Below, one piece after another: positions 15,918 to 39,664 of a DNA stretch of 64,000 nucleotides. Position 1 is the first letter of the stretch, and each line of letters starts with the position of its first letter. A model generated the notes under the pieces. It was not told the origin of the DNA. It saw only the letters and a list, made by a program, of their open reading frames with translations, and did not search any database. This stretch comes from Epilithonimonas sp. JDS (GTDB taxonomy: Bacteria > Bacteroidota > Bacteroidia > Flavobacteriales > Weeksellaceae). The position numbers and the translations under genes were made by a program. Where the stretch lies: contig NZ_JAJSAX010000001.1 in the NCBI RefSeq assembly GCF_021261315.1, forward strand, positions 1,178,001 through 1,242,000, in the 5' to 3' direction.

Positions 15918-16319
15918 ATGATCCCAAAATTAATAAACCTTCCGAAAATATACGATAAAAGAGGTAATCTGTCTTTTTTTGAATATCCAAACCAATTGCC
16001 TTTTGAGATTGAGCGGACTTATTGGATTTATGATGTACCTGGCGGAGAAACCCGTGGCAGTCACGCTTTCCGGGAACAGCAGGAATTTATCATCGCTCTT
16101 TCCGGTAGTTTTGATGTGGTTATAAATGATGGGAAAGAAGAAAAATTATTCTCGCTGAACAGATCTTATTACGGACTGTATGTTCCAAAAATGTATTGGC
16201 GGAGATTGGAAAATTTTTCAACCAATTCATTGGCGCTGATTGTTTCCGACAAAGCCTATAACGAGAATGACTATATAAGAGATTTTAAACAGTTTAAACG
16301 ATTGACGGATGAAAAATAA
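15918..16319 (+). CDS. WxcM/FdtA-like dTDP-sugar 3,4-ketoisomerase, copy 1
   Basis: This 133-aa cupin belongs to the FdtA/QdtA family, which shifts the keto group of dTDP-4-keto-6-deoxyglucose from C4 to C3 before transamination. The family segment VPGGETRGSHAF occupies residues 40-51, and the ending is NENDYIRDF. By residue number, His49 matches the first of the two conserved FdtA histidines (49 and 51), but position 51 is Phe here, so activity may be altered. It overlaps copy 2 by 11 bases. RfbA/RfbB upstream would supply its substrate. Confidence 0.86.
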   Translation: MIPKLINLPKIYDKRGNLSFFEYPNQLPFEIERTYWIYDVPGGETRGSHAFREQQEFIIALSGSFDVVINDGKEEKLFSLNRSYYGLYVPKMYWRRLENFSTNSLALIVSDKAYNENDYIRDFKQFKRLTDEK

Positions 16320-16719
16320 ACCATCAGTATTTGATTGCAGTATTATCAACTTGGGCAAAATTAATTTTGACGAAGGTAATCTGACAGTTGTGCAAAACAA
16401 CACCTCGTTTCCTTTTGAAGTCAAGCGCGTTTTCTATTTATACGATATTGCAGGTGGAGAAAGCAGAGGCGCTCACTCGCACAAAGAATGCCATCAGTTT
16501 TTGATTGCAGCCAGCGGAAGCTACGAAGTCTCCTTGGACGACGGGCATCTGAAAAGGCAGGTATTCTTAAACCGCCCTGATATCGGGCTGCACATCCCAC
16601 CAGGAATCTGGGCGTCGGAGGTTAATTTCTCTTCAGGTGCTATTTGCCTCGTTTTGGCTTCTCATACGTATAATGAGAATGATTACATCAGAGACTATAA
16701 TATTTTTATAAATAAATAA
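16309..16719 (+). CDS. WxcM/FdtA-like dTDP-sugar 3,4-ketoisomerase, copy 2
   Basis: This 136-aa cupin is homologous to the preceding gene. Its active-site strand reads [16 protein letters not shown] at residues 48-63, keeping both conserved histidines (His56 and His58), so it is the better candidate for an active ketoisomerase. The product would be dTDP-3-keto-6-deoxygalactose (Fdt route) or -glucose (Qdt route); the sequence does not tell me which. The ATG lies inside copy 1. The N-acyltransferase gene starts 1 base after its stop, and the aminotransferase follows one gene later, giving a compact A-A-C-acyltransferase3-B order. Confidence 0.9.
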
Positions 16720-16720
16720 G

Positions 16721-17269
16721 ATGAACATTAAAATTCATGCTTTGGCAGACGTTCAGTCAGAAAATATTGGTGAAAACACGATGATATGGCAGTTTTGTGT
16801 GGTTTTGCGGGACGCGGTTATAGGCAAAAACTGCAATATCAACTGTAATGTTTTTATAGAAAATGATGTTGCTATCGGTGATAATGTAACAATAAAACCA
16901 GGAGTTCAGATTTGGGACGGCGTCACACTGGAAGACAATGTTTTCATAGGCCCCAATGTGACATTTACCAATGATCTTGTGCCACGTTCCAAACAATATC
17001 CCGCACAATTTGCAAAGACTTTGGTGAAAAAAGGTGCATCCATCGGAGCAAATTCAACAATCATTGCGGGTAATACAATTGGCGAATATGCTTTAATTGG
17101 AGCAGGAAGCGTGGTGACAAAGGACGTTCCGCCCAATACTGTCTGGCTCGGAAATCCTGCGAAACATACCGGTTACATTACCAAAGACAGTGTGATCCTA
17201 AATCTGGAATTAACTGATAAGGAATCCAATATTTATCAGTTTGTAAATAATGAACTGGTTTTGAAATGA
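16721..17269 (+). CDS. FdtC/QdtC-like dTDP-3-aminosugar N-acyltransferase
   Basis: This 182-aa left-handed beta-helix protein starts with [21 protein letters not shown], and its coils read [30 protein letters not shown] and [13 protein letters not shown], then [25 protein letters not shown]. This is the arrangement of FdtC, QdtC and WlbB, which N-acetylate 3-amino sugars using acetyl-CoA. Genomic partners (ketoisomerases upstream, aminotransferase downstream) support dTDP-Fuc3N or dTDP-Qui3N as substrate. The acyl group is assumed to be acetyl, but the acyl cassette near 30 kb leaves other donors possible. Confidence 0.88.
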
Positions 17270-18324
17270 TTAAACCTTTAACATCATTAAGATTTTTTTT
17301 CGCATTCTTTGTTTTCCTGAGCCACCTCTATTTTTTAGAAAAAGAAAAAAATATGGAATACATTGTTAAAAATCTCTTTTCTGAGGGATTTTTAGGGGTG
17401 AGTTTTTTCTTTATTCTTAGCGGATTTATACTTGCTCTCAACTATCGGGAAAAGTTTCAGAATAAAACCATTAGCCTCAGAGCATTCTACATTGCACGGT
17501 TTGCAAGAATTTATCCTTTATTTTTTATCACAATGCTGGCTGCTGTTCCGTTTGCGTACAGCGGCATCAAGGTTTTGATTTGCAATACCTTTCTTCTACA
17601 GAGTTACATTCCTTATGAAAAATATTTTTTCTCTCTCAATGCGCCTTCCTGGAGTATTTCGGATGAAATGTTTTTTTATGCACTTTTTCCTTTTCTAATT
17701 GGCATTACTTATAAATTAGGATCTTTTATTAAAATATTACTGTGTTTTAGTTTTATCTTTTTAATTGTTATACTGAATGTTACATTAGCTGAAGACCAAG
17801 CACATTACTGGTTATATATTTCACCTTTTGTACGTGTTTTTGATTTTGTTCTTGGTATATTGTTGTTAGATTTTTGTCTGTATCTCAAAAAAATAAAAAC
17901 AGATTTTAATCCGAAGTTATTTTCTCTTTTTGAAGTTAGCGCATTTGCTCTTTTAATGATTTTCTTCCTGTGCAAAGATTATGTTTCAATCAGCTACCGA
18001 TATTCTATTTATTATTGGCTGCCAATGTGCCTGATTATTTTAACAGCTGCAAATTCATTTATTTTCGAAAAAAAAGAGACTTTCATTTCAAATATGCTTT
18101 CCCGGAAATGGCTTGTGTATTTGGGCGAAATCAGTTTTGGTTTTTATCTTATTCATTACCTTGTAATTTTTTATATGATAAGATATGACGGTTTTATGGG
18201 AATTCATCTTGAAGGATTGCCCCTTGCCTGCGCCATGTTTATTGTTACACTTATTACAAGTATCTTTGCTTTTGAAAAAATAGAAAAACCATTTAATAAA
18301 AAAATTAAACGTTTACTTTCATGA
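17266..18324 (+). CDS. Acyltransferase-3 family membrane O-acyltransferase
   Basis: This 352-aa protein has about ten hydrophobic segments and begins [20 protein letters not shown], with [20 protein letters not shown] near residues 40-65 and the R-F-A-R-I-Y-P-L motif near 83-91. These are the standard features of the OafA-like Acyl_transf_3 family. It probably adds an O-acyl group to a sugar of the surface glycan. It overlaps neighbours by 4 bases on both sides and lies inside the 3-aminosugar gene set. It was considered as a Wzx flippase and rejected because these motifs are specific. Confidence 0.88.
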
Positions 18325-19421
18325 TAAAATTTCTTGATCTGCAAAAAATAAATCTACTTCACCAGGCGGAGATCGAACAAAAACTGTTAGATGTATTCCG
18401 CTCCGGCTGGTACCTTTTGGGAAATGAAGTTAAACTTTTTGAAAAGAACTTATCTGCTTACACCGGGATAAAACACGCAATTGGTGTTGCCAACGGATTA
18501 GATGCTCTTAGACTGATTTTCCGAGCGTACATAGAGATTGGTTTTATGAAAAAAGGTGACGAAGTGATTGTGCCTGCCAATACCTACATAGCTTCTATCC
18601 TGGCACTGTCGGATAATGGACTGGTTCCTGTTCTTGTAGAGCCGGACATCAACACTTACAATATTGACATTTCTAAAATTGAAGAAAAAATAACGCCCAA
18701 AACCAAAGCTATATTTATCGTCCATCTTCAGGGTCGAGTGGTTTTCTCAGCAAAGCTACAGGCTCTTGCAGCGGCACACAATCTCAAAATAGTGGAGGAC
18801 AATGCCCAGGCAATCGGTGCAGAGTGGAATGGTCTAAAGACTGGTAATTTGGGTGATGCTGCAGGATTCAGTTTCTATCCCGGAAAAAATCTGGGTGCAT
18901 TAGGAGACGCTGGTGCGGTAACCACAAACGACGACGAATTGGAGCAAGCCATCAGATCTCTTGCCAATTATGGTTCTAGTGAAAAATACGTCAATATCTA
19001 CAAAGGCCTGAACTCCAGGCTTGATGAGATACAAGCTGCCGTTTTGGACATAAAACTTAAATATATTGATGGCGAAAACGCATATCGCAGAGATATCGCA
19101 AAAAAGTTTATTTCAGAAATAAACAATCCAAAAATCATTCTCCCGGAAAACCCCGAAGATGAAAAAGAACACGTGTGGCATGTTTTCGTGATCAGATCCC
19201 AGAATAGGGCAGCGCTGCAGAAATACCTTACTGATAACGGAATCCAGAATCTGATACATTACCCTATCCCCCCACATAAACAAAAAGCCTACAAAGAGTG
19301 GAATGAGCTGTCCTTTCCCATTACAGAGAGAATCCATGACGAAGTTTTAAGCCTCCCAATTTCTCCAGTGTTGGAAAAAGAAGATGTTGATTTGATAATT
19401 GATGTACTTAATAATTATTAA
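18321..19421 (+). CDS. FdtB/QdtB-like dTDP-3-keto-sugar aminotransferase (DegT/DnrJ/EryC1)
   Basis: This 366-aa PLP enzyme adds an amino group at C3 of the ketoisomerase product. The N-terminus [11 protein letters not shown] is typical of FdtB/TylB-type sugar aminotransferases. The cofactor-contacting Asp lies in [10 protein letters not shown] (Asp160), and the Schiff-base lysine is Lys189 in [14 protein letters not shown]. An HVWHVFVIR segment near residue 290 is also family-typical. It overlaps the upstream gene by 4 bases. Together with RfbA, RfbB, ketoisomerase and N-acyltransferase it completes a dTDP-Fuc3NAc or dTDP-Qui3NAc pathway. Confidence 0.93.
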
Positions 19422-20354: not shown

Positions 20355-21035
20355 ATGATCGTAGGTAGAGGACTTTTAGCATCCCTTTTCAATGACAATG
20401 ACAGAGAAGACACAGTTTTTTTTGCATCCGGCGTTTCTAATTCTCTTGAAAACAGACCTGAAGAATTCCTGAGAGAGGAAACTCTGATCAGAAAAACGAT
20501 CGAGGAAAATCCCGAGAAAATATTTGTCTATTTTTCAACTTGCAGCGTTTACGATTCTTCCAAAACAGGAAGTGACTACGTACTTCACAAACTTAAAATG
20601 GAGCAGATTATCAAAAACTCTTGTGAAAAACACTTGATTTTGAGAGTTAGCAATGCGGTTGGTGAAGGTGGAAATCCTAATCTTCTGATGAACTACCTCA
20701 TCCGTTCCATCAAAAACAATGAAACCATTAATGTCCATACAAAAGCAACACGAAACCTGATAGATGCCGATGATATCAAAAATATCACGTTTATGCTTTT
20801 AGACAATCAAACGCTGAACAAAATCGTAAATGTTGCCTACATTCAGAACTATGCTATCATTGAGATTCTGGAAATTATTGAGCGTTTTTACAATACAAAA
20901 CTTAATCTTAATCTAATAAAAAGTGGTTCCGGATACGATATTAATGTCCCGGATGTAGAAGATTATTTCCGAAATAATGGTCTTACAAACAAAGAATCAT
21001 ATCTTTGCAAAATCTTAGAGAAATATTACTCTTAA
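20355..21035 (+). CDS. Short SDR-family sugar-nucleotide enzyme, function unknown
   Basis: This 226-aa protein starts at the first strand of a Rossmann fold (MIVGRGLLASLF, G-x-G-x-x-A). STCSVYD and Tyr-Val-Leu-His-Lys supply the catalytic Ser and YxxxK of extended SDRs. It is about 80 residues shorter than usual NDP-sugar epimerases and lacks a normal TGxxGxxG loop. Nothing suggests a frameshift, because both ends are well formed. It precedes a UDP-HexNAc epimerase by 5 bases. It could be a reductase or epimerase for a modified sugar; the reaction cannot be named. Confidence 0.72.
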   Translation: MIVGRGLLASLFNDNDREDTVFFASGVSNSLENRPEEFLREETLIRKTIEENPEKIFVYFSTCSVYDSSKTGSDYVLHKLKMEQIIKNSCEKHLILRVSNAVGEGGNPNLLMNYLIRSIKNNETINVHTKATRNLIDADDIKNITFMLLDNQTLNKIVNVAYIQNYAIIEILEIIERFYNTKLNLNLIKSGSGYDINVPDVEDYFRNNGLTNKESYLCKILEKYYS

Positions 21036-29260: not shown

Positions 29261-29830
29261 CTAACGAAGTCTTTTTGCTTTTTTGAATTTATACGGCTGA
29301 TTTTTCTTGATAAATTCATCCAACGCTTTTCGGTCTTTTTCCAATTCTCGCGGATAAACAGCATTTCCTTTCAGAATAATATCGCCGTAATCCTCAATGC
29401 TGCAGACGAACTGAGCGGGGTTCCCTACAAAAACAGTATTCGGCGGCATAGATTGTGACAAAACCGAATTAGCGCCCAAAATACAGTTATCGCCGATCTC
29501 AACGTGTTCTGTAATGACGCAGTTGAGGGCAATTGTACAATTGTTACCAATTTTGATTCTTCCAAAAATACGCGCATCTTCATAACCCGGAATTCTACGC
29601 AACATCGTAGTGGTTCCGCCGTGATTTACAAATCTTACGCCTGCAGCAATATTCACATTATCTCCAATCTCGATAAGATAAGGCTCTGTTCCGAAATAAA
29701 CTTTGTCCGGCGTATTCAGATTTTTGCCCACTTTCATACCTTTATATTTGCAGATCTCAACATTGGCTTTGTTCAGCATTTGCTCGTAAACGGATTGTAT
29801 TTTCAGCAGTATTTTATAGAAAAGAATCAT
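29261..29830 (-). CDS. Left-handed beta-helix acyltransferase
   Basis: This 189-aa protein has hexapeptide coils (IEIGDNVNIAAGVRF, IKIGNNCTIALNCVITEHVEIGDNCILGANSVL) and ends with MPPNTVFVGNPAQFV. The FVNHGGTT segment carries the histidine usually found at the active site of the galactoside/maltose acetyltransferase type. It lies back to back with the KAS III/ACP cassette, sharing a short divergent promoter region, so it is a candidate for using the acyl group that cassette makes. That link is inference; plain O-acetylation is the default. Confidence 0.85.
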   Translation of the reverse strand: MILFYKILLKIQSVYEQMLNKANVEICKYKGMKVGKNLNTPDKVYFGTEPYLIEIGDNVNIAAGVRFVNHGGTTTMLRRIPGYEDARIFGRIKIGNNCTIALNCVITEHVEIGDNCILGANSVLSQSMPPNTVFVGNPAQFVCSIEDYGDIILKGNAVYPRELEKDRKALDEFIKKNQPYKFKKAKRLR

Positions 29831-29901: not shown

Positions 29902-29909
29902 TATCTTTG
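29902..29909 (+). promoter_or_regulatory. Promoter -7 box (TATCTTTG) for the acyl cassette
   Basis: TATCTTTG matches TAnnTTTG and lies 25 bases before the KAS III start at 29935. The same octamer recurs ahead of the second KAS III gene (32050-32057). No -33 TTG was found at normal spacing. Confidence 0.6.
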
Positions 29910-29934: not shown

Positions 29935-30888
29935 ATGATCAATATTGCTGCAATCGAACATTATCTCCCGGAAAATGTACTGACAAATTCTGACTTAGAA
30001 AAAGAATTCCCTGAGTGGAATGCAGCAAAAATCAATGCCAAAATCGGAATCGACGTAAGACACGTAGCCGGCGAAAATGAAACCTCTCTGGATCTCGCTT
30101 TCGAAGCATGTCAGAAGCTGTTCAAAACCTACGACAAATCAAACATTGATTTTATCCTTTTCTGCACACAAAGTCCGGATTACTTCCTGCCAACAACAGC
30201 GTGCATGCTTCAGGATAAGCTGGAGCTGCCGAAGAAAACGGGTGCTCTGGATTTTAACTTGGGCTGTTCTGGTTTTGTTTACGGATTGGCTCTGGCAAAA
30301 GGTTTGATTTCGATTGGACTTGCAAAAAATGTTTTGCTTGTGACCGCAGAGACTTATTCCAAATTTTTGGATAAAGAAGACAAATCAAACAGAAGTATTT
30401 TTGGCGATGCGGCAGCAGTGACAATTGTTGAAAAAGACGATTCAAAAGCAGATTTTCAGTTTTCTGTAGGGACAGACGGAAGTGGTTTTGAAAATCTGAT
30501 TGTCAAAAACGGCGCTTCAAGATTCGGTAAATCAGATGATACAACCTTGTTTATGAACGGACCGGAGATTTTCAACTTCACTATAGAAAATATTCCCGGA
30601 CTGGTGGAAGACACTTTGTCTAAGAACAGTCTGACGATGGAAGATATCGACCTATTTGTTTTTCATCAGGCCAATTCTTATATGCTGAATTATCTTAGAA
30701 AAAAATGCAAAATTCCGGAAGACAAATTTGTCATCGATATGAAGGATTCGGGAAATACGGTTTCTGCCACAATCCCAATCGCTTTGGAATCTGCGCTTAA
30801 AAATGGAAAAATAAAGTCCGGAAGTAAAGTTCTGATCGCAGGTTTTGGCGTTGGCTATTCCTGGGCAGCCGGAATTATAGAATTTTAA
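29935..30888 (+). CDS. 3-oxoacyl-ACP synthase III (FabH-like), copy 1
   Basis: This 317-aa KAS III-family enzyme carries the catalytic triad Cys111 (NLGCSGF), His244 (FHQAN) and Asn274 (GNTVSA), almost the same numbering as E. coli FabH. KAS III condenses an acyl-CoA starter with malonyl-ACP by decarboxylation to give a 3-oxoacyl-ACP. It lies inside a glycan locus, followed by an ACP and a ketoreductase, so a specialised role making a sugar acyl group is more likely than housekeeping lipid synthesis. A second copy at 32080 is very similar by eye. The housekeeping fabH is expected elsewhere in the genome. Confidence 0.93.
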   Translation: MINIAAIEHYLPENVLTNSDLEKEFPEWNAAKINAKIGIDVRHVAGENETSLDLAFEACQKLFKTYDKSNIDFILFCTQSPDYFLPTTACMLQDKLELPKKTGALDFNLGCSGFVYGLALAKGLISIGLAKNVLLVTAETYSKFLDKEDKSNRSIFGDAAAVTIVEKDDSKADFQFSVGTDGSGFENLIVKNGASRFGKSDDTTLFMNGPEIFNFTIENIPGLVEDTLSKNSLTMEDIDLFVFHQANSYMLNYLRKKCKIPEDKFVIDMKDSGNTVSATIPIALESALKNGKIKSGSKVLIAGFGVGYSWAAGIIEF

Positions 30889-30908
30889 AATATATTAAAC
30901 TATAAATA

Positions 30909-31142
30909 ATGAATACACAAACGTTTTTAGAAAAACTACAGGACGAATTGGAAGAAGATGATGCTTTGACACTTGATACAAAATTCAAAGAACTGGAAAA
31001 TTATGACTCTATGTCTGTACTGTCATTGATCGCTTTTATTGACGAAAGTTTTGATAAAAGTCTTGATACTAAACATTTTAAAGACATCTCTACTGTTCAG
31101 GAACTGAAAGAACTGATTGGCTCAGAAAATTTTGAAGACTAA
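30909..31142 (+). CDS. Acyl carrier protein
   Basis: This 77-aa acidic helical protein has a phosphopantetheine site at Ser34 in NYDSMSVLSL (D-S-M, where D-S-L is usual). Length and the acidic composition fit a free-standing ACP. It holds the growing acyl chain as a thioester for the neighbouring KAS III and ketoreductase. It starts 20 bases after KAS III copy 1, and its stop shares one base with the ketoreductase start (TAATG), so expression is coupled. The D-S-M variant and the locus position suggest it is dedicated to this pathway rather than general fatty acid synthesis. Confidence 0.92.
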   Translation: MNTQTFLEKLQDELEEDDALTLDTKFKELENYDSMSVLSLIAFIDESFDKSLDTKHFKDISTVQELKELIGSENFED

Positions 31143-31903
31143 TGTCTGATTTTTTTTCACTTCAGGATAAAACCATCGTCATTTCCGGAGCTTCTTCCGG
31201 AATTGGCAAATCCTGCGCAGAACTCTGTGCAGCTTCAGGAGCGAAATTAATCCTGCTTGGAAGAGACATTTCCAAACTTGAAACTGCATTTCAGGAATTT
31301 AAATTTAAAGAAAAACCGCTCTTCCTAGAATTGGATATTACCTCAGAAGATGATGTAAACCAGCTTTCTAAAACTCTGATAGAAAAAGACATAAAAGTCT
31401 CAGGCTTTGTCCATTCCGCAGGTTTGAAACATACTTTACCTCTCAAAAATACCGGAACGAAAGTATTGAATGAGAGTTTTACTGTTAATGTATTTTCAGG
31501 ATTTTATTTGGCAAGAGCTTTCTCTCAGAAAAAACTAAAAGCTGATAATCAAAGCTTTGTCTTTATTTCATCAATTGCGGGCGTTGTAGGCGAACCCGCA
31601 AATCTGGCTTACAGCGCTACAAAAGGTGCGTTGATCTCGGGAACCAAATCTTTGGCTCTGGAACTGGCAAAACAAAAGACAAGAGTCAACTGTGTGAGTC
31701 CTGCAATGGTAAACACGCCGCTTAGCGAAAAAATGTTTGATAACATTGGCGAGGAAGCCACAAAAAATATTCTGGACAAACATCCGTTGGGAATCGGAAA
31801 TCCTGAAGATGTTGCAAAATCGGTGATTTTCTTACTTTCGGAAGGCTCCAGCTGGATTACAGGCACGAATTTGATTGTAGACGGCGGCTATTCTGCTCAT
31901 TAA
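31142..31903 (+). CDS. 3-oxoacyl-ACP reductase-like SDR (FabG-type)
   Basis: This 253-aa classical SDR has the cofactor loop GASSGIG at residues 16-22, the catalytic serine in SSIAGVVG, the YSATKGAL active-site Tyr and Lys, and the C-terminal ITGTNLIVDGGYSAH typical of FabG. It would reduce 3-oxoacyl-ACP to 3-hydroxyacyl-ACP with NADPH. No dehydratase or enoyl reductase is encoded nearby, so the 3-hydroxyl should remain in the product. It is translationally coupled to the ACP and precedes the second KAS III by 176 bases. Confidence 0.9.
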   Translation: MSDFFSLQDKTIVISGASSGIGKSCAELCAASGAKLILLGRDISKLETAFQEFKFKEKPLFLELDITSEDDVNQLSKTLIEKDIKVSGFVHSAGLKHTLPLKNTGTKVLNESFTVNVFSGFYLARAFSQKKLKADNQSFVFISSIAGVVGEPANLAYSATKGALISGTKSLALELAKQKTRVNCVSPAMVNTPLSEKMFDNIGEEATKNILDKHPLGIGNPEDVAKSVIFLLSEGSSWITGTNLIVDGGYSAH

Positions 31904-32049
31904 TTAAATCCTTTGAATCCCTTTATTTAAAGTCGATTTTCAAGATTAATTAATAAAAACAGATTATTTTTGATGAATCAATAAGCATAAAGTTTCATAA
32001 AAAACTCTTTCCGGTGGCATTCTATACATAACATTCTTTTTAAGATGCT

Positions 32050-32057
32050 TATCTTTG
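32050..32057 (+). promoter_or_regulatory. Promoter -7 box (TATCTTTG) for KAS III copy 2
   Basis: TATCTTTG matches TAnnTTTG, 22 bases before the start at 32080. The 176-base space after the ketoreductase gene therefore probably contains an internal promoter. No -33 TTG was seen. Confidence 0.58.
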
Positions 32058-32079
32058 CAAAAATTTACCCCACGCTAAT

Positions 32080-33030
32080 ATGATTAACATTGCAGCGATA
32101 GAATACTATCTGCCCAAAAATATATTAACCAACGAAGATATTGCCAATGAATTCCCGGAGTGGAATGCAGAAAAAATCAAATCAAAAATCGGTGTGGAAT
32201 CCAGACATTTCGCAGATGAATCTCAAACGGCGCTTGATTTAGCTTTCGAAGCTTGTGAGAAGCTTTTTGAAAATTATGATAAGAGCAAGATCGATTTTAT
32301 TCTCTTCTGTACGCAAAGTCCTGACTATTTCCTTCCGACGACCGCCTGTATTTTACAGGACAAATTGGGACTTCAAAAAAACATTGGTGCTTTGGACTTC
32401 AATCTTGGCTGTTCTGGTTTTGTCTATGGATTGACCTTAGCAAAAGGTTTGATTTCTATTGGTTTAGCTAAAAATATTCTACTCGTTACGTCTGATACTT
32501 ACACCAAATTTCTGGACAAAAATGATAAATCCAACAGAAGTATTTTCGGAGACGGTGCTGCTGTGAGTGTGATTGAAAAGGACGATTCCAAAGCAGATTT
32601 CCAATATGTTGTAGGAACAGATGGCGCGGGTTACAACAATCTGATTGTAGAAAACGGCGCTTCCAGAAACGCTTCCGAAAAGCCTGTTCTATTTATGAAA
32701 GGACCAAAGATTTTTACTTTTGCATTGGAAAATATTCCTGCATTAATTAGTGAAACGCTGGAGAAAAACAAACTCAGACTGGAAGACATCGACCTTTTTG
32801 TGTTTCATCAGGCAAGTTCTTATATGCTGAATTACCTTAAAAATCTTTGTAATATTCCAGACGAAAAATTCTTCCTGGATATGAAAGACATTGGTAATAC
32901 AGTTTCTGCCAGTATTCCGATTGCGCTGAAATTGGCCTTAAATCAAGGTAAAATCAAGGAAGGTTTCAAAGTGATGGTTGCCGGTTTTGGGGTTGGCTAT
33001 TCCTGGGGAGCGGGAATTTTAGAATTCTAA
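32080..33030 (+). CDS. 3-oxoacyl-ACP synthase III (FabH-like), copy 2
   Basis: This 316-aa paralogue of the gene at 29935 looks about two-thirds identical or more by eye, with long shared stretches around the catalytic cysteine. The triad is complete: Cys111, His243 and Asn273. Differences cluster at the N-terminal helices and at residues 195-230 (NASEKPVLFMKGPK here), a region that in FabH lines the acyl pocket and dimer edge, so starter preference could differ from copy 1. It has its own promoter box and is followed after 3 bases by a GT4 gene. Confidence 0.93.
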   Translation: MINIAAIEYYLPKNILTNEDIANEFPEWNAEKIKSKIGVESRHFADESQTALDLAFEACEKLFENYDKSKIDFILFCTQSPDYFLPTTACILQDKLGLQKNIGALDFNLGCSGFVYGLTLAKGLISIGLAKNILLVTSDTYTKFLDKNDKSNRSIFGDGAAVSVIEKDDSKADFQYVVGTDGAGYNNLIVENGASRNASEKPVLFMKGPKIFTFALENIPALISETLEKNKLRLEDIDLFVFHQASSYMLNYLKNLCNIPDEKFFLDMKDIGNTVSASIPIALKLALNQGKIKEGFKVMVAGFGVGYSWGAGILEF

Positions 33031-33033
33031 ATT

Positions 33034-34194
33034 TTGAAAAAGAAAATCCTTATCAGAATTGGTTCTCTGCGTCACGGCGGCGCAGAAAAAGTGCTGGTAA
33101 CTTTTCTCAAAAACCTCCCGAAAGACAAATATGAGATTGATCTGTTGTTAAATCTCTACTCCGGAAAATATCTGACAGACGTTCCGGATTGGGTCAACGT
33201 GATGTACCTCAACCGCGGCGAAATGATCACCACCAACCGCCCAAAAGATATTCCTACAAAAATATACCGTGTTGTCTATCAAAGACTTTTAAAAAAATAC
33301 CCTAAAATTCTTTATAAACGGAAACTCAAAAATAAAGTTTACGACATTGAGTTTGCTGCGATTCACGGTTTCAAAGATGAAGTTCTGAACAGCCCTTTGA
33401 AATCATCTAAAAAACTGATGTGGATCCACAACGATCTTACGCAGGTCAGCGGCTACACGCCCGAAAAGATCAGGCACTTTTTTCTTTATGACAAAGTGAT
33501 GGTCATTTCTGAGAAGATCCAGCAGACATTTTTGGATTTAGCAAAAACTGAAGCCGAAAAAAATAAAATTGTGAGAATTTACAATCCGCTGGACACCAAC
33601 GAAATTCTCGGGAAGTCAGAAGCGGGAAGTCAGAAGTCGGAAGACCTTCAACCTTCAACCTCAGACCTCCAACCTGTATTCATTTCTGTCGGAACCGTTT
33701 TTCCTCAGAAAGGATTTGACAGATTGCTGCAAGTTCATAAAAGACTTTTGGATGAAGGTTTCCAACACAAAGTTTTGATTGTTGGCGATGGTTACGATTT
33801 TGAAAATGTCAAAAAACTGAAAACAGCATTGGGTGTTGATGAAACGGCGACAATGCTTGGCTTTACAGACAATCCTTATCCTTACTTCAAGGCGGCAGAT
33901 TTTTATATTCTGAGTTCCAGATACGAAGGTTATCCAACCGTTTTATTCGAAGCGATTACTTTAAAAAAGAACATCATCGCAACTGATGTTTCGGGCGTTA
34001 CAGAAATGCTGGAAAACGGAAAACTGGGCTTGATTACAGAGAATTCCGAAGAAGGAATCTATGATGGGATGAAAAAAGCACTGACAAATCCTGAACATTT
34101 CAAATCTTATCAGGAAAATCTTGAGCATTACGAAATGCCTTTCAACCTGAAAAATTCTGTCGATAAGATTATGGAAATCATTGATAATCTGTAA
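33034..34194 (+). CDS. Glycosyltransferase family 4 with repeat-derived linker
   Basis: This 386-aa GT-B enzyme starts with TTG (no alternative ATG) 3 bases after KAS III copy 2. RIGSLRHGGAEKVLVTFLKNL is the N-terminal glycine loop. ISVGTVFPQKGFDRLLQVHKRL, VGDGYDFENVKKLK and SSRYEGYPTVLFEAITLKK give the C-terminal donor domain with its E-x7-E motif. Between the two domains, residues about 193-214 (KSEAGSQKSEDLQPSTSDLQP) are low-complexity and encoded by repeated GGGAAGTCAGAAG and ACCTTCA units that resemble intergenic repeats. The frame is intact. Compared with the sister GT4 at 28116, this linker is several residues longer. Confidence 0.92.
   Translation: MKKKILIRIGSLRHGGAEKVLVTFLKNLPKDKYEIDLLLNLYSGKYLTDVPDWVNVMYLNRGEMITTNRPKDIPTKIYRVVYQRLLKKYPKILYKRKLKNKVYDIEFAAIHGFKDEVLNSPLKSSKKLMWIHNDLTQVSGYTPEKIRHFFLYDKVMVISEKIQQTFLDLAKTEAEKNKIVRIYNPLDTNEILGKSEAGSQKSEDLQPSTSDLQPVFISVGTVFPQKGFDRLLQVHKRLLDEGFQHKVLIVGDGYDFENVKKLKTALGVDETATMLGFTDNPYPYFKAADFYILSSRYEGYPTVLFEAITLKKNIIATDVSGVTEMLENGKLGLITENSEEGIYDGMKKALTNPEHFKSYQENLEHYEMPFNLKNSVDKIMEIIDNL
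33610..33675 (+). repeat. Short-unit repeat inside a glycosyltransferase reading frame
   Basis: GGGAAGTCAGAAG occurs at 33610-33622 and again at 33624-33636, followed by TCGGAAG, then ACCTTCA twice in tandem and CCTCAGACCTCCAACC. The purine-rich half followed by a pyrimidine-rich half is the look of flavobacterial intergenic repeats. It lies in the interdomain linker of the GT4 without breaking the frame. Confidence 0.7.
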
Positions 34195-34333: not shown

Positions 34334-34885
34334 ATGGCTTACAGCATTCTTCAAAAAGATTTTTACAGAGAAAGCGGAAAATATCTGTCTCATTTTCAGA
34401 TGCTGAAAAAATGTTTCAGTCCGAATCTGCATTACATCTACTGGTTCAGAAATGCTCAGAAACATCCGAAATCATCATTAACAGGTAAATTCTACCGACT
34501 CATTCTCCGCCATTATCAGATCAAATACGGCTTCCAGATCTATGCTGAAACCGAAATTGGCGAAGGTTTCTACCTTGGACATTGGGGCGCGCTCGTCATC
34601 AATCCGAAAGCTAAAATTGGGAAAAACTGCAATATTGCGCAAGGTGTCACCATCGCGCAGGCCAACCGTGGAAAAAATGAAGGCGTTCCTGTCATCGGAA
34701 ACGAAGTCTGGATCGGTCCAAACGCAGTTATTGTTGGAAATATTACAATTGGCAATAATGTTTTGATTGCGCCAAACGCTTATGTGAATACTGATGTTCC
34801 CGATAATTCTATTGCCTTGGGAAATCCTGCAGTGATTACCTCAAAACTCAATGCTACTGAGGGTTATATTAATAATAAGGTTTGA
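34334..34885 (+). CDS. Serine acetyltransferase-like hexapeptide acyltransferase
   Basis: This 183-aa protein has an N-terminal helical part, then KYGFQIYAETEIGEGFYLGHWG and coils AKIGKNCNIAQGVTI and VWIGPNAVIVGNITIGNNVLIAPNAYV, with a GHWGALVI histidine in the CysE-like position. CysE itself acetylates L-serine, but short versions in glycan loci usually acetylate sugars (WcaB-like). No cysteine-synthesis gene is adjacent, so a sugar role is preferred. It is the last gene of the polysaccharide locus before a terminator and a change to unrelated genes. Confidence 0.82.
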   Translation: MAYSILQKDFYRESGKYLSHFQMLKKCFSPNLHYIYWFRNAQKHPKSSLTGKFYRLILRHYQIKYGFQIYAETEIGEGFYLGHWGALVINPKAKIGKNCNIAQGVTIAQANRGKNEGVPVIGNEVWIGPNAVIVGNITIGNNVLIAPNAYVNTDVPDNSIALGNPAVITSKLNATEGYINNKV

Positions 34886-35756: not shown

Positions 35757-36134
35757 AATCTGTAATTTTAATTGTTTTTAAAAATAAATATGCAAGGTTA
35801 TTTGTTTTTAGTTGATTATATTTTTCAATAACGGATTTTTACATTACAAAAACTGACCCAAACAACTTAGGTTGAAATATTTTTTTATCTTTTAACATTA
35901 AAACCATAACACTTCTAAATCAATTTTCTTTTGACTTGATATACTTTTGTCAATGTTTTTACTTGTTACAGGCTGACAAGCGTAATAACTTAAGCACTTC
36001 AATATTAAACTTTGTTAAAAACTTGGCATTTTAAATTTTTAAAGTATATTTTTGTGTTATTATTGATTTAGTCTATTAGTTTTTAAAATCAACGACAGCG
36101 AATCAAATAATGAATAACAGCAAACTTTATTGTG
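35757..36134. other. 378-base intergenic region with carbonic anhydrase promoter
   Basis: AT-rich spacer between divergent genes. The only clear element is at its right end: TTG at 36023-36025, a 21-base gap and TATTTTTG at 36047-36054, a good match to TTG-N17-23-TAnnTTTG, about 80 bases before the carbonic anhydrase ATG. I see no convincing coding frame, RNA gene or repeat in the rest. Confidence 0.6.
36023..36054 (+). promoter_or_regulatory. Complete flavobacterial promoter (TTG-N21-TATTTTTG)
   Basis: The -33 TTG and -7 TATTTTTG are spaced by 21 bases, within the published Flavobacterium range. It would start a transcript covering the carbonic anhydrase and the small secreted protein, and possibly the SulP gene. 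Confidence 0.65.
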
Positions 36135-36809
36135 ATGACAAACTCGTACGAAGGTATTTTCGAAAACAATAAAAAATGGGTTGAAGGAAAATTGGCAGAT
36201 AACCCCAACTATTTCCACGACCTTGCTAAAACCCAGCACCCGGATTATCTTTACATAGGATGCTCCGACAGCCGCGCAACGGCAGAAGAGCTGATGGGCG
36301 TAGGGCCAGGCGAAGTGTTTGTACACCGAAATATCGCCAACGTGGTCAACACTTTGGATATGAGTTCGACTGCGGTCATCCAATATGCAGTGGAACATCT
36401 GAAAGTGAAACACATCATCGTTTGCGGACATTACAATTGTGGCGGTGTAAAAGCGGCAATGACGTCTCAGGATCTTGGACTTCTGAATCCGTGGCTGAGA
36501 AACATAAGAGATGTTTACAGACTTCATCAGGAAGAATTGGATTCCATTGACGAAGAAAAGAAGTACGACCGCCTTGTGGAACTGAATGTTCAGGAGCAAT
36601 GCATCAACGTCATCAAAATGGCCTGCGTGCAGGAACGTTATATTTTAGAAGAATATCCTATCGTTCACGGTTGGGTTTTCGACCTCAGAACGGGGAAAAT
36701 TATAGATCTGGAGATCGATTTTGAAAAAATCTTGAAAGACATCCAGAAAATCTACAACCTGACAGACTCTGATTGGGTGATGAGCAAAAAAAACAAAAAT
36801 ATCAGCTAA
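36135..36809 (+). CDS. Beta-class carbonic anhydrase
   Basis: This 224-aa enzyme interconverts CO2 and bicarbonate. Zinc and catalytic residues are visible: Cys43, Asp45 and Arg47 (IGCSDSR), His99 and Cys102 (CGHYNCGG). Length and the C-terminal acidic tail ending in SKKNKNIS fit the Can/CynT group. ATG 36135 is chosen over the GTG one codon earlier. It has no signal peptide, so it acts in the cytoplasm. A small secreted-protein gene, a SulP transporter and a second beta-carbonic anhydrase follow, forming a likely bicarbonate-handling cluster. Confidence 0.94.
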   Translation: MTNSYEGIFENNKKWVEGKLADNPNYFHDLAKTQHPDYLYIGCSDSRATAEELMGVGPGEVFVHRNIANVVNTLDMSSTAVIQYAVEHLKVKHIIVCGHYNCGGVKAAMTSQDLGLLNPWLRNIRDVYRLHQEELDSIDEEKKYDRLVELNVQEQCINVIKMACVQERYILEEYPIVHGWVFDLRTGKIIDLEIDFEKILKDIQKIYNLTDSDWVMSKKNKNIS

Positions 36810-36818
36810 TTTCTTTTT

Positions 36819-37112
36819 ATGAAATTTTGGAGCATTATAACATTAACGATTTTTCTCAACTTTACGGTTCTTCCAGGGATGGCCGCAATGTTCGGTTGGG
36901 AATTACCGAGAACCAATGTTATAGTGAACGAGGAGGAAACGCATTCCAACGCTTTTGCACTCTACGAAAAGACCATTCCTAAAACGCTGGACATTCACGA
37001 TTTTCTGAAATTCCAGGAAGCTGTTCCTCAGAAAACAATTGCACCAAATTGGGAATCCAATATCTACTTTTCCCCTTACCTCAGCATTTTTTCTCCACCT
37101 CCGGAAGCTTAA
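36819..37112 (+). CDS. Small secreted protein of unknown function
   Basis: This 97-aa protein has an N-terminal hydrophobic stretch (MKFWSIITLTIFLNFTVLPGMAA by composition, residues 1-23), which should be a cleavable signal peptide. The mature part is acidic in its first third (NEEETHSNAF) and ends FSPYLSIFSPPPEA. I recognise no domain. It follows the carbonic anhydrase by 9 bases and precedes the SulP gene by 209 bases, so it is likely co-transcribed with the former. A periplasmic or membrane-associated role in this cluster is only inference. Confidence 0.7.
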   Translation: MKFWSIITLTIFLNFTVLPGMAAMFGWELPRTNVIVNEEETHSNAFALYEKTIPKTLDIHDFLKFQEAVPQKTIAPNWESNIYFSPYLSIFSPPPEA

Positions 37113-37268
37113 TCCCTATTTCGTTTTTCAATAAACGTAATCCTGTTTGCTGTTTCAATTGACAGTAAACCTTATTCTGTATTAAGTCAATCAACATTTT
37201 TTTAGAATAATTGATATTAATTGAGAACCTGTTATAAATTAAATTTCAGGGTTCTCAATTCAAAAATT

Positions 37269-37286
37269 AGCAAAAAGCCAATTGCT
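37269..37286. repeat. 18-base inverted repeat, left copy
   Basis: AGCAAAAAGCCAATTGCT, a perfect reverse complement of the sequence at 38927-38944. The two copies bracket the SulP gene. Confidence 0.75.
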
Positions 37287-37321
37287 GCCAGCTAATTATC
37301 AATGACTTCTGCTATATTACT

Positions 37322-38917
37322 ATGCAAAAATCAAAATCTTTGATTGGAGGGATCAAAGAGAATTTTCCTTCCGGTCTTGTCGTATTTCTTGTGGCATTGC
37401 CACTTTGTCTGGGAATCGCGTTAGCATCTGGAGCGCCGCCATTGTCCGGAATTATTGCCGGGATTGTGGGTGGTATTGTTGTCGGATGCATTAGCAATTC
37501 CAACATTTCCGTTTCCGGTCCGGCTGCTGGTTTGACAGCTATTGTTCTGGTTGCGATTACGGATCTTGGGGCATTCGAGTTATTTCTTTGTGCCGGAATC
37601 ATTGCGGGAATTCTCCAGTTGATTTTAGGATTTGTCCGCGCCGGAAGTATTTCCAATTATTTCCCGAACAACGTGATCGAAGGGATGCTTGCCGGGATTG
37701 GAATTATCATTATCCTGAAACAGATTCCCCACGCCTTAGGTTTTGACAGCGATTATGAAGGCCACGAATCTATTTTTGACAAAGGTCTGAATTTCGGTTA
37801 TTTTGCAGAATTAGGTGCGGCAATCACACCCGGAGCAATCATTATCACTTTGGTTTCCGTAGCTATTTTATTGGCTTGGGATCACGTTACCATTCTAAAA
37901 AGATTAAAACTTTTGCCAGGTGCACTGGTTGCGGTGATCGCAGGGATTTTGTTGAATGAATTTTTCAAAATGTCAGGAAGCTCATTAGCAATTTCTGAAA
38001 AACATCTTGTGACTTTGCCAACACCAAGTTCACTGGAAGATTTCAAAAATCTGATCACATTCCCTGATCTCAATGGATTTACCAATCCCAAAGTCTGGAT
38101 CGCCGGTGCAACGATTGCAATTGTAGCATCTATCGAGACGTTACTTTGTATTGAAGCTTCGGACAGACTGGATGTTAGAAGAAGAATCACGGACACAAAT
38201 CTGGAACTGAAAGCCCAGGGCATTGGAAACCTCGTCAGCTCATTCATCGGTGGACTGCCAATGACGTCTGTTGTGGTAAGGAGTTCAGCAAACGCAAATG
38301 CTGGTGCAACTTCCAAGATTTCCGCCATCATCCACGGGGTTTTGCTTTTGATTTGTGTTTTATCAATTCCTGTAATCCTAAATCTGATTCCATTGGCAAC
38401 ATTGGCAGCAGTATTGATTTTAGTCGGATACAAACTGGCAAAACCAGCGACTTTCAAACATTTCTGGCACAATGGCAAATATCAGTTCATTCCGTTTTTA
38501 GCAACAGTTTTGGCAGTAGTTTTTACAGATCTTTTGAAAGGTGTAGGAATCGGATTGTTGATTTCAGTTTTCTATATTCTTCAGGGGAATATGAAAAGGG
38601 CTTATTACCTCAGCAAAGAAACACTGGACGATGCAGACGAGATCACGATAAAGCTGGCAGAAGAAGTGTCATTCCTGAATAAAGCGGCCATCAAGAAAAC
38701 ATTGAAAAATGTAAAATCAGGTTCTAAAGTCATCATCGATGCAAAAACCACTTCTTACATCACGACTGATGTTCTGGAAATGATCCAGGATTTTGCCAAC
38801 GTAAGAGCAAAAGAAGAAGACATTGAAGTAGAATTGATCGGCTTCAAAACTTCTTACAGAGACTATGCTAGTGATGAAGATTCGCACGTCATCGTCAATC
38901 ACAAAAGGGCAATGTAG
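37322..38917 (+). CDS. SulP-family anion transporter (probable bicarbonate)
   Basis: This 531-aa membrane protein has the SulP (SLC26) start ENFPSGLVVFLVALPLCLGIALASGAPP by composition (residues 14-41) with the family GIIAGIVGG and SGPAAGLT motifs. About 10-14 hydrophobic segments follow, then a C-terminal STAS domain from about residue 430 (EITIKLAEEVSFLNKAAI). SulP proteins carry sulfate, bicarbonate or other anions. Flanking by two carbonic anhydrases points to bicarbonate, as with BicA of cyanobacteria. Direction and ion coupling are not visible. Its 18-base inverted-repeat flanks are described separately. Confidence 0.92.
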   Translation: MQKSKSLIGGIKENFPSGLVVFLVALPLCLGIALASGAPPLSGIIAGIVGGIVVGCISNSNISVSGPAAGLTAIVLVAITDLGAFELFLCAGIIAGILQLILGFVRAGSISNYFPNNVIEGMLAGIGIIIILKQIPHALGFDSDYEGHESIFDKGLNFGYFAELGAAITPGAIIITLVSVAILLAWDHVTILKRLKLLPGALVAVIAGILLNEFFKMSGSSLAISEKHLVTLPTPSSLEDFKNLITFPDLNGFTNPKVWIAGATIAIVASIETLLCIEASDRLDVRRRITDTNLELKAQGIGNLVSSFIGGLPMTSVVVRSSANANAGATSKISAIIHGVLLLICVLSIPVILNLIPLATLAAVLILVGYKLAKPATFKHFWHNGKYQFIPFLATVLAVVFTDLLKGVGIGLLISVFYILQGNMKRAYYLSKETLDDADEITIKLAEEVSFLNKAAIKKTLKNVKSGSKVIIDAKTTSYITTDVLEMIQDFANVRAKEEDIEVELIGFKTSYRDYASDEDSHVIVNHKRAM

Positions 38918-38926
38918 TTAGATGAT

Positions 38927-38944
38927 AGCAATTGGCTTTTTGCT
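38927..38944. repeat. 18-base inverted repeat, right copy
   Basis: AGCAATTGGCTTTTTGCT, the reverse complement of 37269-37286, starting 9 bases after the SulP stop and followed by GATAGCTTT. Confidence 0.75.
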
Positions 38945-39028
38945 GATAGCTTTAAAATCAATCTAAAAACATTGACAAACATTTAAATTATTATTTTAAC
39001 AATTAACACTTTTATTAAATTTAAAAAT

Positions 39029-39664
39029 ATGAAAGCACATACATTCGAAACACAAACGACCATTACACCTGACAAAGCACTTGATATCCTGAAAGAAGGA
39101 AACCAGAGATTTGTAAATAATCTCAAAGCTAACAGAGATCTGTTGTCTCAGGTAAATGACACGCGTGCAGGACAATGGCCGTTTGCTGTAATTTTGAGCT
39201 GTATCGACAGCCGTACGTCTGCAGAACTGATCTTCGATCAGGGTCTGGGCGATATTTTCAGTGTGAGAATTGCAGGTAATTTTGTGAATCAGGACATCCT
39301 TGGTTCTATGGAATTTGGCTGCAACGTGGCAGGTTCCAAACTGGTTGTTGTTCTAGGTCACACAAAATGCGGCGCGTTGAAAGGCGGCCTGGACTCAGCA
39401 GCAATCGAAGGTCTTGGAATGGATAATCTGAATCATTTGATTGGTCATTTTGATCACATCATCAAAGATATTATTAATGACGGCGAGGAACGTTCTTCCA
39501 AAAATGAAGATCTGTTGGAAAGACTGAATCAAAGTAACGTAAAAAATGCGCTGGATGAGATTCGCAGCCAGAGTTCTACCCTTAAGAAACTTGAGGACGA
39601 AGGCAAAATCAAAATCGTTGGCGCTAACTATGACGTGGAAACCGGCGTAGTAACTTGGATATAA
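39029..39664 (+). CDS. Beta-class carbonic anhydrase, second copy
   Basis: This 211-aa protein belongs to a different subgroup from the first carbonic anhydrase in the window. Zinc and catalytic residues are Cys58, Asp60 and Arg62 (LSCIDSR), then His111 and Cys114 (GHTKCGA). The N-terminal ITPDKALDILKEGNQRF is typical of SulP-associated beta-carbonic anhydrases. No signal peptide is present, so it should act in the cytoplasm next to the transporter's inner face, equilibrating imported bicarbonate with CO2. A hairpin follows its stop. Confidence 0.94.
   Translation: MKAHTFETQTTITPDKALDILKEGNQRFVNNLKANRDLLSQVNDTRAGQWPFAVILSCIDSRTSAELIFDQGLGDIFSVRIAGNFVNQDILGSMEFGCNVAGSKLVVVLGHTKCGALKGGLDSAAIEGLGMDNLNHLIGHFDHIIKDIINDGEERSSKNEDLLERLNQSNVKNALDEIRSQSSTLKKLEDEGKIKIVGANYDVETGVVTWI

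Follow-up and report, generated by a model that had tools for sequence, protein, structure and literature searches.

A predicted 3-hydroxyacyl cassette and a mostly lone KAS III paralogue in a surface-glycan locus of Epilithonimonas

A stretch of 64,000 nucleotides from Epilithonimonas sp. JDS (contig NZ_JAJSAX010000001.1, positions 1,178,001 to 1,242,000), hereafter the window, carries within a surface-glycan locus two genes for beta-ketoacyl-acyl carrier protein synthase III (KAS III A and B), one for an acyl carrier protein (ACP) and one for a reductase (KR) of the short-chain dehydrogenase/reductase (SDR) family, with two hexapeptide genes (HX1, HX2) and two glycosyltransferase genes (GTa, GTb) as neighbours (Table 1). 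With moderate confidence, we read these genes as two units: HX1 divergent from A-ACP-KR, and B-GTb-HX2, a genus-wide arrangement with its own promoter-like box. In a single round, A would condense a short acyl-coenzyme A, in the simplest case acetyl-CoA, with a malonyl group carried by the dedicated ACP, KR would reduce the product to a 3-hydroxyacyl-ACP (most simply 3-hydroxybutyryl-ACP), and HX1 would move the hydroxyacyl group to a sugar of the surface glycan. In what follows, G-numbers denote genomes (G000 is the window genome) and L-numbers fetched loci (L105 is the locus from G022).

Open reading frames, family scans (which took in part of the window genes) and sequence motifs agree on the two synthases, the ACP with its serine and the reductase that a preliminary description of this DNA had reported. 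Both synthases pass the model NF006829 'beta-ketoacyl-ACP synthase 3' (A 287.8 bits, B 278.9 bits, cut-off 249) and fall short of the fabH model TIGR00747 (259.1 and 249.2 bits, cut-off 292.1 bits), and the Cys-His-Asn triad (C112, H244 and N274 in E. coli numbering) is present in A, in B and in all 157 rows of our KAS alignment, a few of which are one locus fetched twice. The ACP, with its DSM motif, scores above the gathering score of PF00550 (25.4 bits, cut-off 20.8) and below the cut-off of TIGR00517 (19.7 against 70.45 bits). The reductase, in which the motifs GASSGIG and YSATK can be read, had been called FabG-like: it is an SDR by PF13561 (177.3 bits) and PF00106 (138.3 bits), but does not reach the curated FabG cut-off (TIGR01830, 144.5 against 297.75 bits), and since PF13561, its best Pfam match, is titled 'Enoyl-(ACP) reductase' but is a general SDR model, the name ketoreductase rests on context. 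As previously described, the open reading frame list and the family scans show no separate dehydratase or enoyl reductase gene between the flanking glycosyltransferases.

The four genes do not form one unbroken run, a gap of 176 bp with a promoter-like box separating the reductase from B. The order HX1(-) A-ACP-KR-B-GTb-HX2 is identical in G022, with protein identities of 79-91%, and the ratio of nonsynonymous to synonymous substitution rates (dN/dS) against G022 is 0.03-0.11 for HX1, ACP, KR, GTb and HX2, rough values with dS at 1.1-2.7; for A and B it is not computable, dS being saturated. The shared order and the low dN/dS indicate that the arrangement is not due to chance. A foreign base composition was considered and rejected, as the GC content of A, KR and HX1 (39-40%) matches that of B, GTb and HX2 (38-41%); the ACP gene stands at 32%, but is short.

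Fatty acid synthesis employs proteins of the KAS III, ACP and KR types, and the genes might serve ordinary lipid synthesis or else be inactive, both of which we consider very improbable. The window genome has six places with a KAS III C-terminal domain; elsewhere it encodes FabH-like proteins 43% (L230) and 37% (L232) identical to E. coli FabH and, at L231, an AcpP that is 63% identical to E. coli AcpP, adjoins a FabF-like gene and is unlike the cassette ACP. The four genes are therefore not the genome's only fabH and ACP genes, the circumstance that the preliminary description had named as counting against a dedicated role. Moreover, in our genus sample of 23 Epilithonimonas genomes (the window genome and G001-G022) the cassette reductase is found at E<=1e-30 in two, G000 and G022, and not in the other 21, and purifying selection likewise speaks against this reading. 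The FabH and AcpP genes elsewhere, and a gene content like that of the Flavobacterium psychrophilum R-group genes, uphold the earlier view of a dedicated acyl cassette in a glycan locus.

Within the genus, the A query matches 22 of the 23 genomes at E<=1e-50, and 21 carry an A- or B-type KAS; G013 (73% complete) has only a 38% identical KAS, and G019 no match to A. We fetched loci with matches of at least 60% identity (108 including the window), and scored genes in them as present by tblastn at E<=1e-3 over half of the query, the reductase at 35% identity or more. Of the 21 Epilithonimonas loci, 19 have neither ACP nor KR beside B, and two (the window and L105) have A-ACP-KR-B. Among the 87 loci from other genera, 64 have a single-KAS KAS-ACP-KR cassette and 22 have KAS-ACP without KR (including L212 and L213, whose KAS match is truncated); in L209 (G247) the KAS lies apart from ACP and KR, which sit on another contig (L210). 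A-ACP-KR is thus of the single-KAS type, which favours the one-round route to 3-hydroxybutyryl that had been offered as an alternative in the preliminary description. In our family sample of 320 genomes, 123 match A at E<=1e-80 and 68 encode the reductase with at least 51% identity, the copy of G045 having one internal stop. GTb and HX2 are found in 107 of the 108 loci with such a KAS. HX2 was rejected as the cassette's own transferase: it is not KAS-specific, being present in 282 of the 320 family genomes, at least 159 of which are without such a KAS.

Beside the lone B, no remnant of ACP or KR was found at E<=1 in the 19 loci, in a search that detected the positive control L105, and at E<=10 only scattered weak matches appeared (E 1.7 and above); L113 offers only 184 bp upstream of B for this search. 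Five lone-B genomes (G002, G006, G012, G014 and G017) have only one PF00550 ACP at E<=0.01, and other lone-B genomes two to five. We take TAnnTTTG to be the Bacteroidota -7 consensus, and a box fitting it starts 29-31 bases 5' of the B start codon in 20 of the 21 Epilithonimonas loci, the start of the B gene in the 21st (L124) not being resolved.

The KAS tree comprises 80 rows, with support given as value pairs; some long rows (including L217_5817 and L023_7458) are placed unsurely according to a program warning. The A of the window and that of G022 are sisters (100/96) and lie next to the 21 B (100/98), in a joint clade of 23 rows (100/99). Within it, the window B groups with the B of G004, G008 and G018, and the B of G022 with those of G021 and G001; from the sequences, B seems to have been inherited with the species, while A was retained in just two genomes. 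Six rows, the extra KAS of the two-KAS cassettes of Flavobacterium and Bacteroidales, make up a clade apart (100/99), to which no KAS of the window belongs. A and B are thus sister paralogues, and do not come from two separate clades as in other two-KAS loci. The dN/dS of B is 0.011-0.019 against three relatives, indicating purifying selection; a fourth comparison, with G022, is saturated.

Residues at the predicted ACP-binding face differ between the paralogues. Lys257 of E. coli FabH presumably has a role in docking. Lys256 participates in the E. coli ACP-KAS III docking model, according to the available passages of PMC8036411. Both positions are basic in the two A and in all 84 of the L125-L208 rows. 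In 130 KAS rows, not counting the two B near a cassette ACP, an ACP gene lies no more than 4 kb away; of these rows, 124 have both positions basic, five have one and one has none. By comparison, 20 of the 21 B rows have no basic residue there and the remaining row has one, so that both are basic in none. The full pair is likewise absent from the three other lone KAS (L211, L219, L220): L211 has no basic residue at these positions, and L219 and L220 have one, as does L021 (the same locus as L109), also without an ACP within 4 kb. At the positions that we take to line the acyl pocket of E. coli FabH (81, 87, 142, 157, 189, 205, 207 and 304), A and B are the same, and the extra KAS of L036 and L025 are partly different. 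With the same pocket residues as A and the basic pair gone, B seems fitted neither to a longer substrate of a second round nor to the cassette ACP. Judged by its sequence and neighbours, B is a separate unit, B-GTb-HX2, and not part of the A-ACP-KR cassette; its probable partner is the housekeeping ACP or CoA, because the basic pair is gone and no ACP or reductase gene adjoins it in most species. More tentatively, the loss of the pair in B and the like losses in three other lone KAS may mean that the B lineage gave up dedicated-ACP docking after the duplication, and that B, lacking its own reductase, makes or transfers a short glycan acyl group from CoA or the housekeeping ACP.

For the transfer step, HX1 is with moderate support the best candidate acyltransferase of the cassette. 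In a tree of HX1 relatives, 57 of the 60 rows of the window-like alpha clade have KR, compared with 9 of the remaining 37. Taken at 69% identity or more, alpha HX1 occurs in 62 of the 320 family genomes, 59 of which have the reductase; 9 of the 258 non-alpha genomes have it. In the loci of other genera, alpha HX1 is found with KR in 55 and without in 3, and beta HX1 with KR in 9 and without in 19 (Fisher p 1.3e-9). The NCBIfam models nearest to HX1, among them WbbJ and galactoside O-acetyltransferase, all score under cut-off, and at that level its likeness to O-acetyltransferases (of the WbbJ, maltose and galactoside types) is no weaker than that to N-acyltransferases. Since these nearest models are mostly O-acetyltransferases, under cut-off, the predicted linkage would be as likely an ester as an amide. 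Relatives of HX1 in G114, G116, G126, G127, G134, G149 and others, at ~50% identity, have one stop codon inside the aligned stretch.

The preliminary description had also suggested that the two synthases and the reductase could run two rounds to 3,5-dihydroxyhexanoyl. In such a scheme A would make acetoacetyl and KR 3-hydroxybutyryl, B would extend it, and KR would then give 3,5-dihydroxyhexanoyl-ACP, as predicted for WfpC/D/E/F. The precedent is real. According to the available passages of Cisar and colleagues (PMC6519341), wfpC and wfpE (KAS), wfpD (ACP), wfpF (reductase) and wfpG (PglD-like) of F. psychrophilum are predicted to make and transfer 3,5-dihydroxyhexanoyl, and this group has been assigned there by nuclear magnetic resonance, in line with the background given in the preliminary description. 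In both G000 and G022 the two KAS, ACP and KR lie together, and two-KAS cassettes recur (L025, L026, L029, L034, L036, L037, L038, L041 and others). However, wherever the tree includes both KAS of a two-KAS cassette, the partners belong to separate clades, whereas A and B are sisters; unlike the extra KAS of L036 and L025, B does not depart from A at the compared pocket positions; it has lost the basic pair though only 1.5 kb from the cassette ACP; and it does without ACP and KR in 19 of 21 loci. We therefore regard joint two-round synthesis as unlikely, and that part of the proposal is not sustained. Another possibility is that B is a KAS III-like acyltransferase that, as CerJ does, passes an acyl group straight to a sugar without condensation. 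CerJ and ChlB3 have the KAS III fold in common with B, and CerJ moves malonyl onto a sugar hydroxyl (PMC9573744, available passages); such a role would fit a lone KAS beside a glycosyltransferase throughout the genus, and in 20 of the 21 B the HQAN motif has Ser in place of Asn247. Nevertheless, CerJ and ChlB3, which transfer rather than condense, have a Cys-His-Asp triad in the same passages (PMC9573744), while the third residue is Asn in 21 of 21 B, and the nearest solved relatives of A, the paralogue used as query in place of B, are named condensing enzymes. On balance we find a CerJ-type B quite improbable.

The cassette could also have another acceptor, the amino group of a dTDP-3-amino-3,6-dideoxyhexose (genes 15918-19421), by way of the FdtC-like transferase at 16721-17269. 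Two FdtA genes, this FdtC-like gene and a DegT aminotransferase gene lie in the same locus, and a KAS and an ACP are found inside such an operon, with a GNAT protein, in L216, L222, L224 and L027. Against this, the cassette starts 10.5 kb past the end of the operon, its constant neighbour in other genomes is HX1, and the hexapeptide protein of the operon has as its closest matches a WxcM-like protein and others that bear the name N-acetyltransferase. This acceptor therefore appears rather unlikely, and one round by A-ACP-KR with transfer by HX1 remains the reading that we prefer.

Several observations nonetheless weigh against that reading. A, ACP, KR and B have been kept together in both A-bearing genomes (G000 and G022), so that cooperation is possible. 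The residue pair is an imperfect marker: only one position is basic in the ACP-linked KAS of L028, L031, L033, L035 and L221 and none in the second KAS of L217, and L209 and L043 keep both despite having no ACP within 4 kb (in L209, ACP and KR are on another contig of the genome; in L043 the ACP is 4.1 kb away). Lys has also been acquired by B at three sites (208, 211 and 270 in E. coli numbering), and its ACP face may have been rewired instead of lost. As the cassette ACP itself reaches only 1.2e-4 with PF00550, the search may have overlooked a divergent ACP in those five lone-B genomes with one ACP. Taken by itself, the TAnnTTTG motif shows no enrichment in L105 (27 occurrences, 23.5 expected by chance). 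As for HX1, the link with the reductase is not significant in an independent-pairs test that allows for relatedness; of the three well-supported pairs, an average of 2.4 agree in direction, 0.0 run the other way and 0.6 show no difference, and with only three significance is out of reach. Nine genomes have the reductase without alpha HX1, three have alpha HX1 without the reductase, and HX1-like genes are common overall (215 of 320 genomes at E<=1e-30).

The general idea is not new: for wfpC-G, a prediction of dedicated acyl genes that serve sugar decoration is already in print. In the available passages of PMC6519341, these R1-group genes share with the window KAS, a dedicated ACP, a ketoreductase and an acyltransferase in an O-polysaccharide locus, but their two KAS are called different synthases, whereas A and B are sister paralogues and B is mostly lone; in addition, the acyl group goes to UDP-Qui2NAc4N via a PglD homologue. 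In the window, none of the genes scanned passes a cut-off of the Pgl set; HX1 is nearest WbbJ and HX2 nearest EpsC, the amino-sugar genes are of Fdt type, and the gene at 16721 matches NeuD/PglB/VioB under cut-off (107.7 against 160.8). Flavobacterium loci (L036 and others) were equated with wfpC-F by their like gene content. Closer to the window are the single-KAS cassettes L125-L208 (82 of the 84 in the group that holds Chryseobacterium L017 and L018), with KAS 62-67%, ACP 55-70% and KR 50-56% identical to those of the window and the same neighbours HX1, GTa, GTb and HX2, but with one KAS and no B paralogue. The lone KAS III of Epilithonimonas (L007-L016, L019, L021) is 79-97% identical to B and is followed by GTb and HX2, without A, ACP or KR.

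KAS III and a dedicated ACP also occur in a sugar pathway, as in the window, in runs of FdtA, GNAT, ACP, KAS III and an FdtB-type aminotransferase (L216, 6398-9625; L222, 5792-9160; L224, 5711-9390; and L027, a Muribaculaceae metagenome-assembled genome, 8350-12143). These differ in having no reductase in the run, a GNAT protein in place of the hexapeptide transferase, and a position embedded in dTDP-3-amino-sugar synthesis. The GNAT protein of L027 is a weak Pfam match, and L224 has two ACP-like open reading frames. At 2309-8102 of L217 (G045), a Rieske oxygenase and a ferredoxin-type reductase accompany two KAS, an ACP, an SDR and a PglD-type transferase; an acyl cassette that includes an oxygenase would point to a further hydroxylation. 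The spacing of KAS and SDR matches seen in L217 recurs in G047, G059, G154 and G171. As to the predicted product, 3-hydroxybutyryl has been reported on several bacterial O-antigen sugars (PMC3210612, available passages), and flagellin glycan islands carry fatty-acid-type genes, the available passages having no KAS III match (PMC4875605).

Our literature search turned up no Weeksellaceae cassette of this kind, which is no proof that none is in print, nor did it turn up the single-KAS family cassettes, the HX1 clade link or the lone paralogue. One odd locus becomes part of a testable set that spans the family: cassettes with a single KAS, some of which have no reductase; two clades of transferase, one of them associated with the reductase; and a KAS paralogue that mostly stands alone. 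From a comparison of the glycans between species with different members of this set, it would emerge how bacteria set the acyl decoration of their surface sugars, and whether the KAS III residue pair marks dependence on a dedicated ACP.

Table 1. Features of the cassette region, in positions of the window
Feature	Position	Strand	Length	Remarks
HX1 hexapeptide acyltransferase	29261-29830	-	189 aa	PF00132; divergent from A-ACP-KR; candidate acyl transferase
TATCTTTG box	29902-29909	+		fits TAnnTTTG; precedes A start codon
KAS III A	29935-30888	+	317 aa	predicted condensing enzyme of cassette; Lys-Lys at E. coli positions 256/257
ACP	30909-31142	+	77 aa	dedicated carrier; Ser34 in DSM; PF00550
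SDR reductase (KR)	31142-31903	+	253 aa	read as ketoreductase
TATCTTTG box	32050-32057	+		fits TAnnTTTG; precedes B
KAS III B	32080-33030	+	316 aa	paralogue found across the genus, mostly alone; Asn-Leu at E. coli 256/257
GTb glycosyltransferase	33034-34194	+		PF00534; directly 3' of B
HX2 hexapeptide transferase	34334-34885	+		EpsC/CysE/WcaB models nearest, under cut-off

The wider locus contains an ABC transporter pair, the GDP-fucose genes gmd and fcl (above cut-offs), a TviB/TviC-like pair (under cut-off) and the Fdt-type genes described above, which together indicate a surface-glycan locus. Its two FdtA-family genes are in tandem at 15918-16719 (PF05523, 166 and 170.5 bits), and two tandem relatives are present in L027 too. 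At 20355-21035 lies a short NAD-epimerase-like protein of 226 aa that matches positions 56-240 only of PF01370. Further along, at 36132-39664, are two genes that we take to be carbonic-anhydrase-like, around what is presumably a SulP-like transporter; this gene group is also found downstream of the locus in several relatives.

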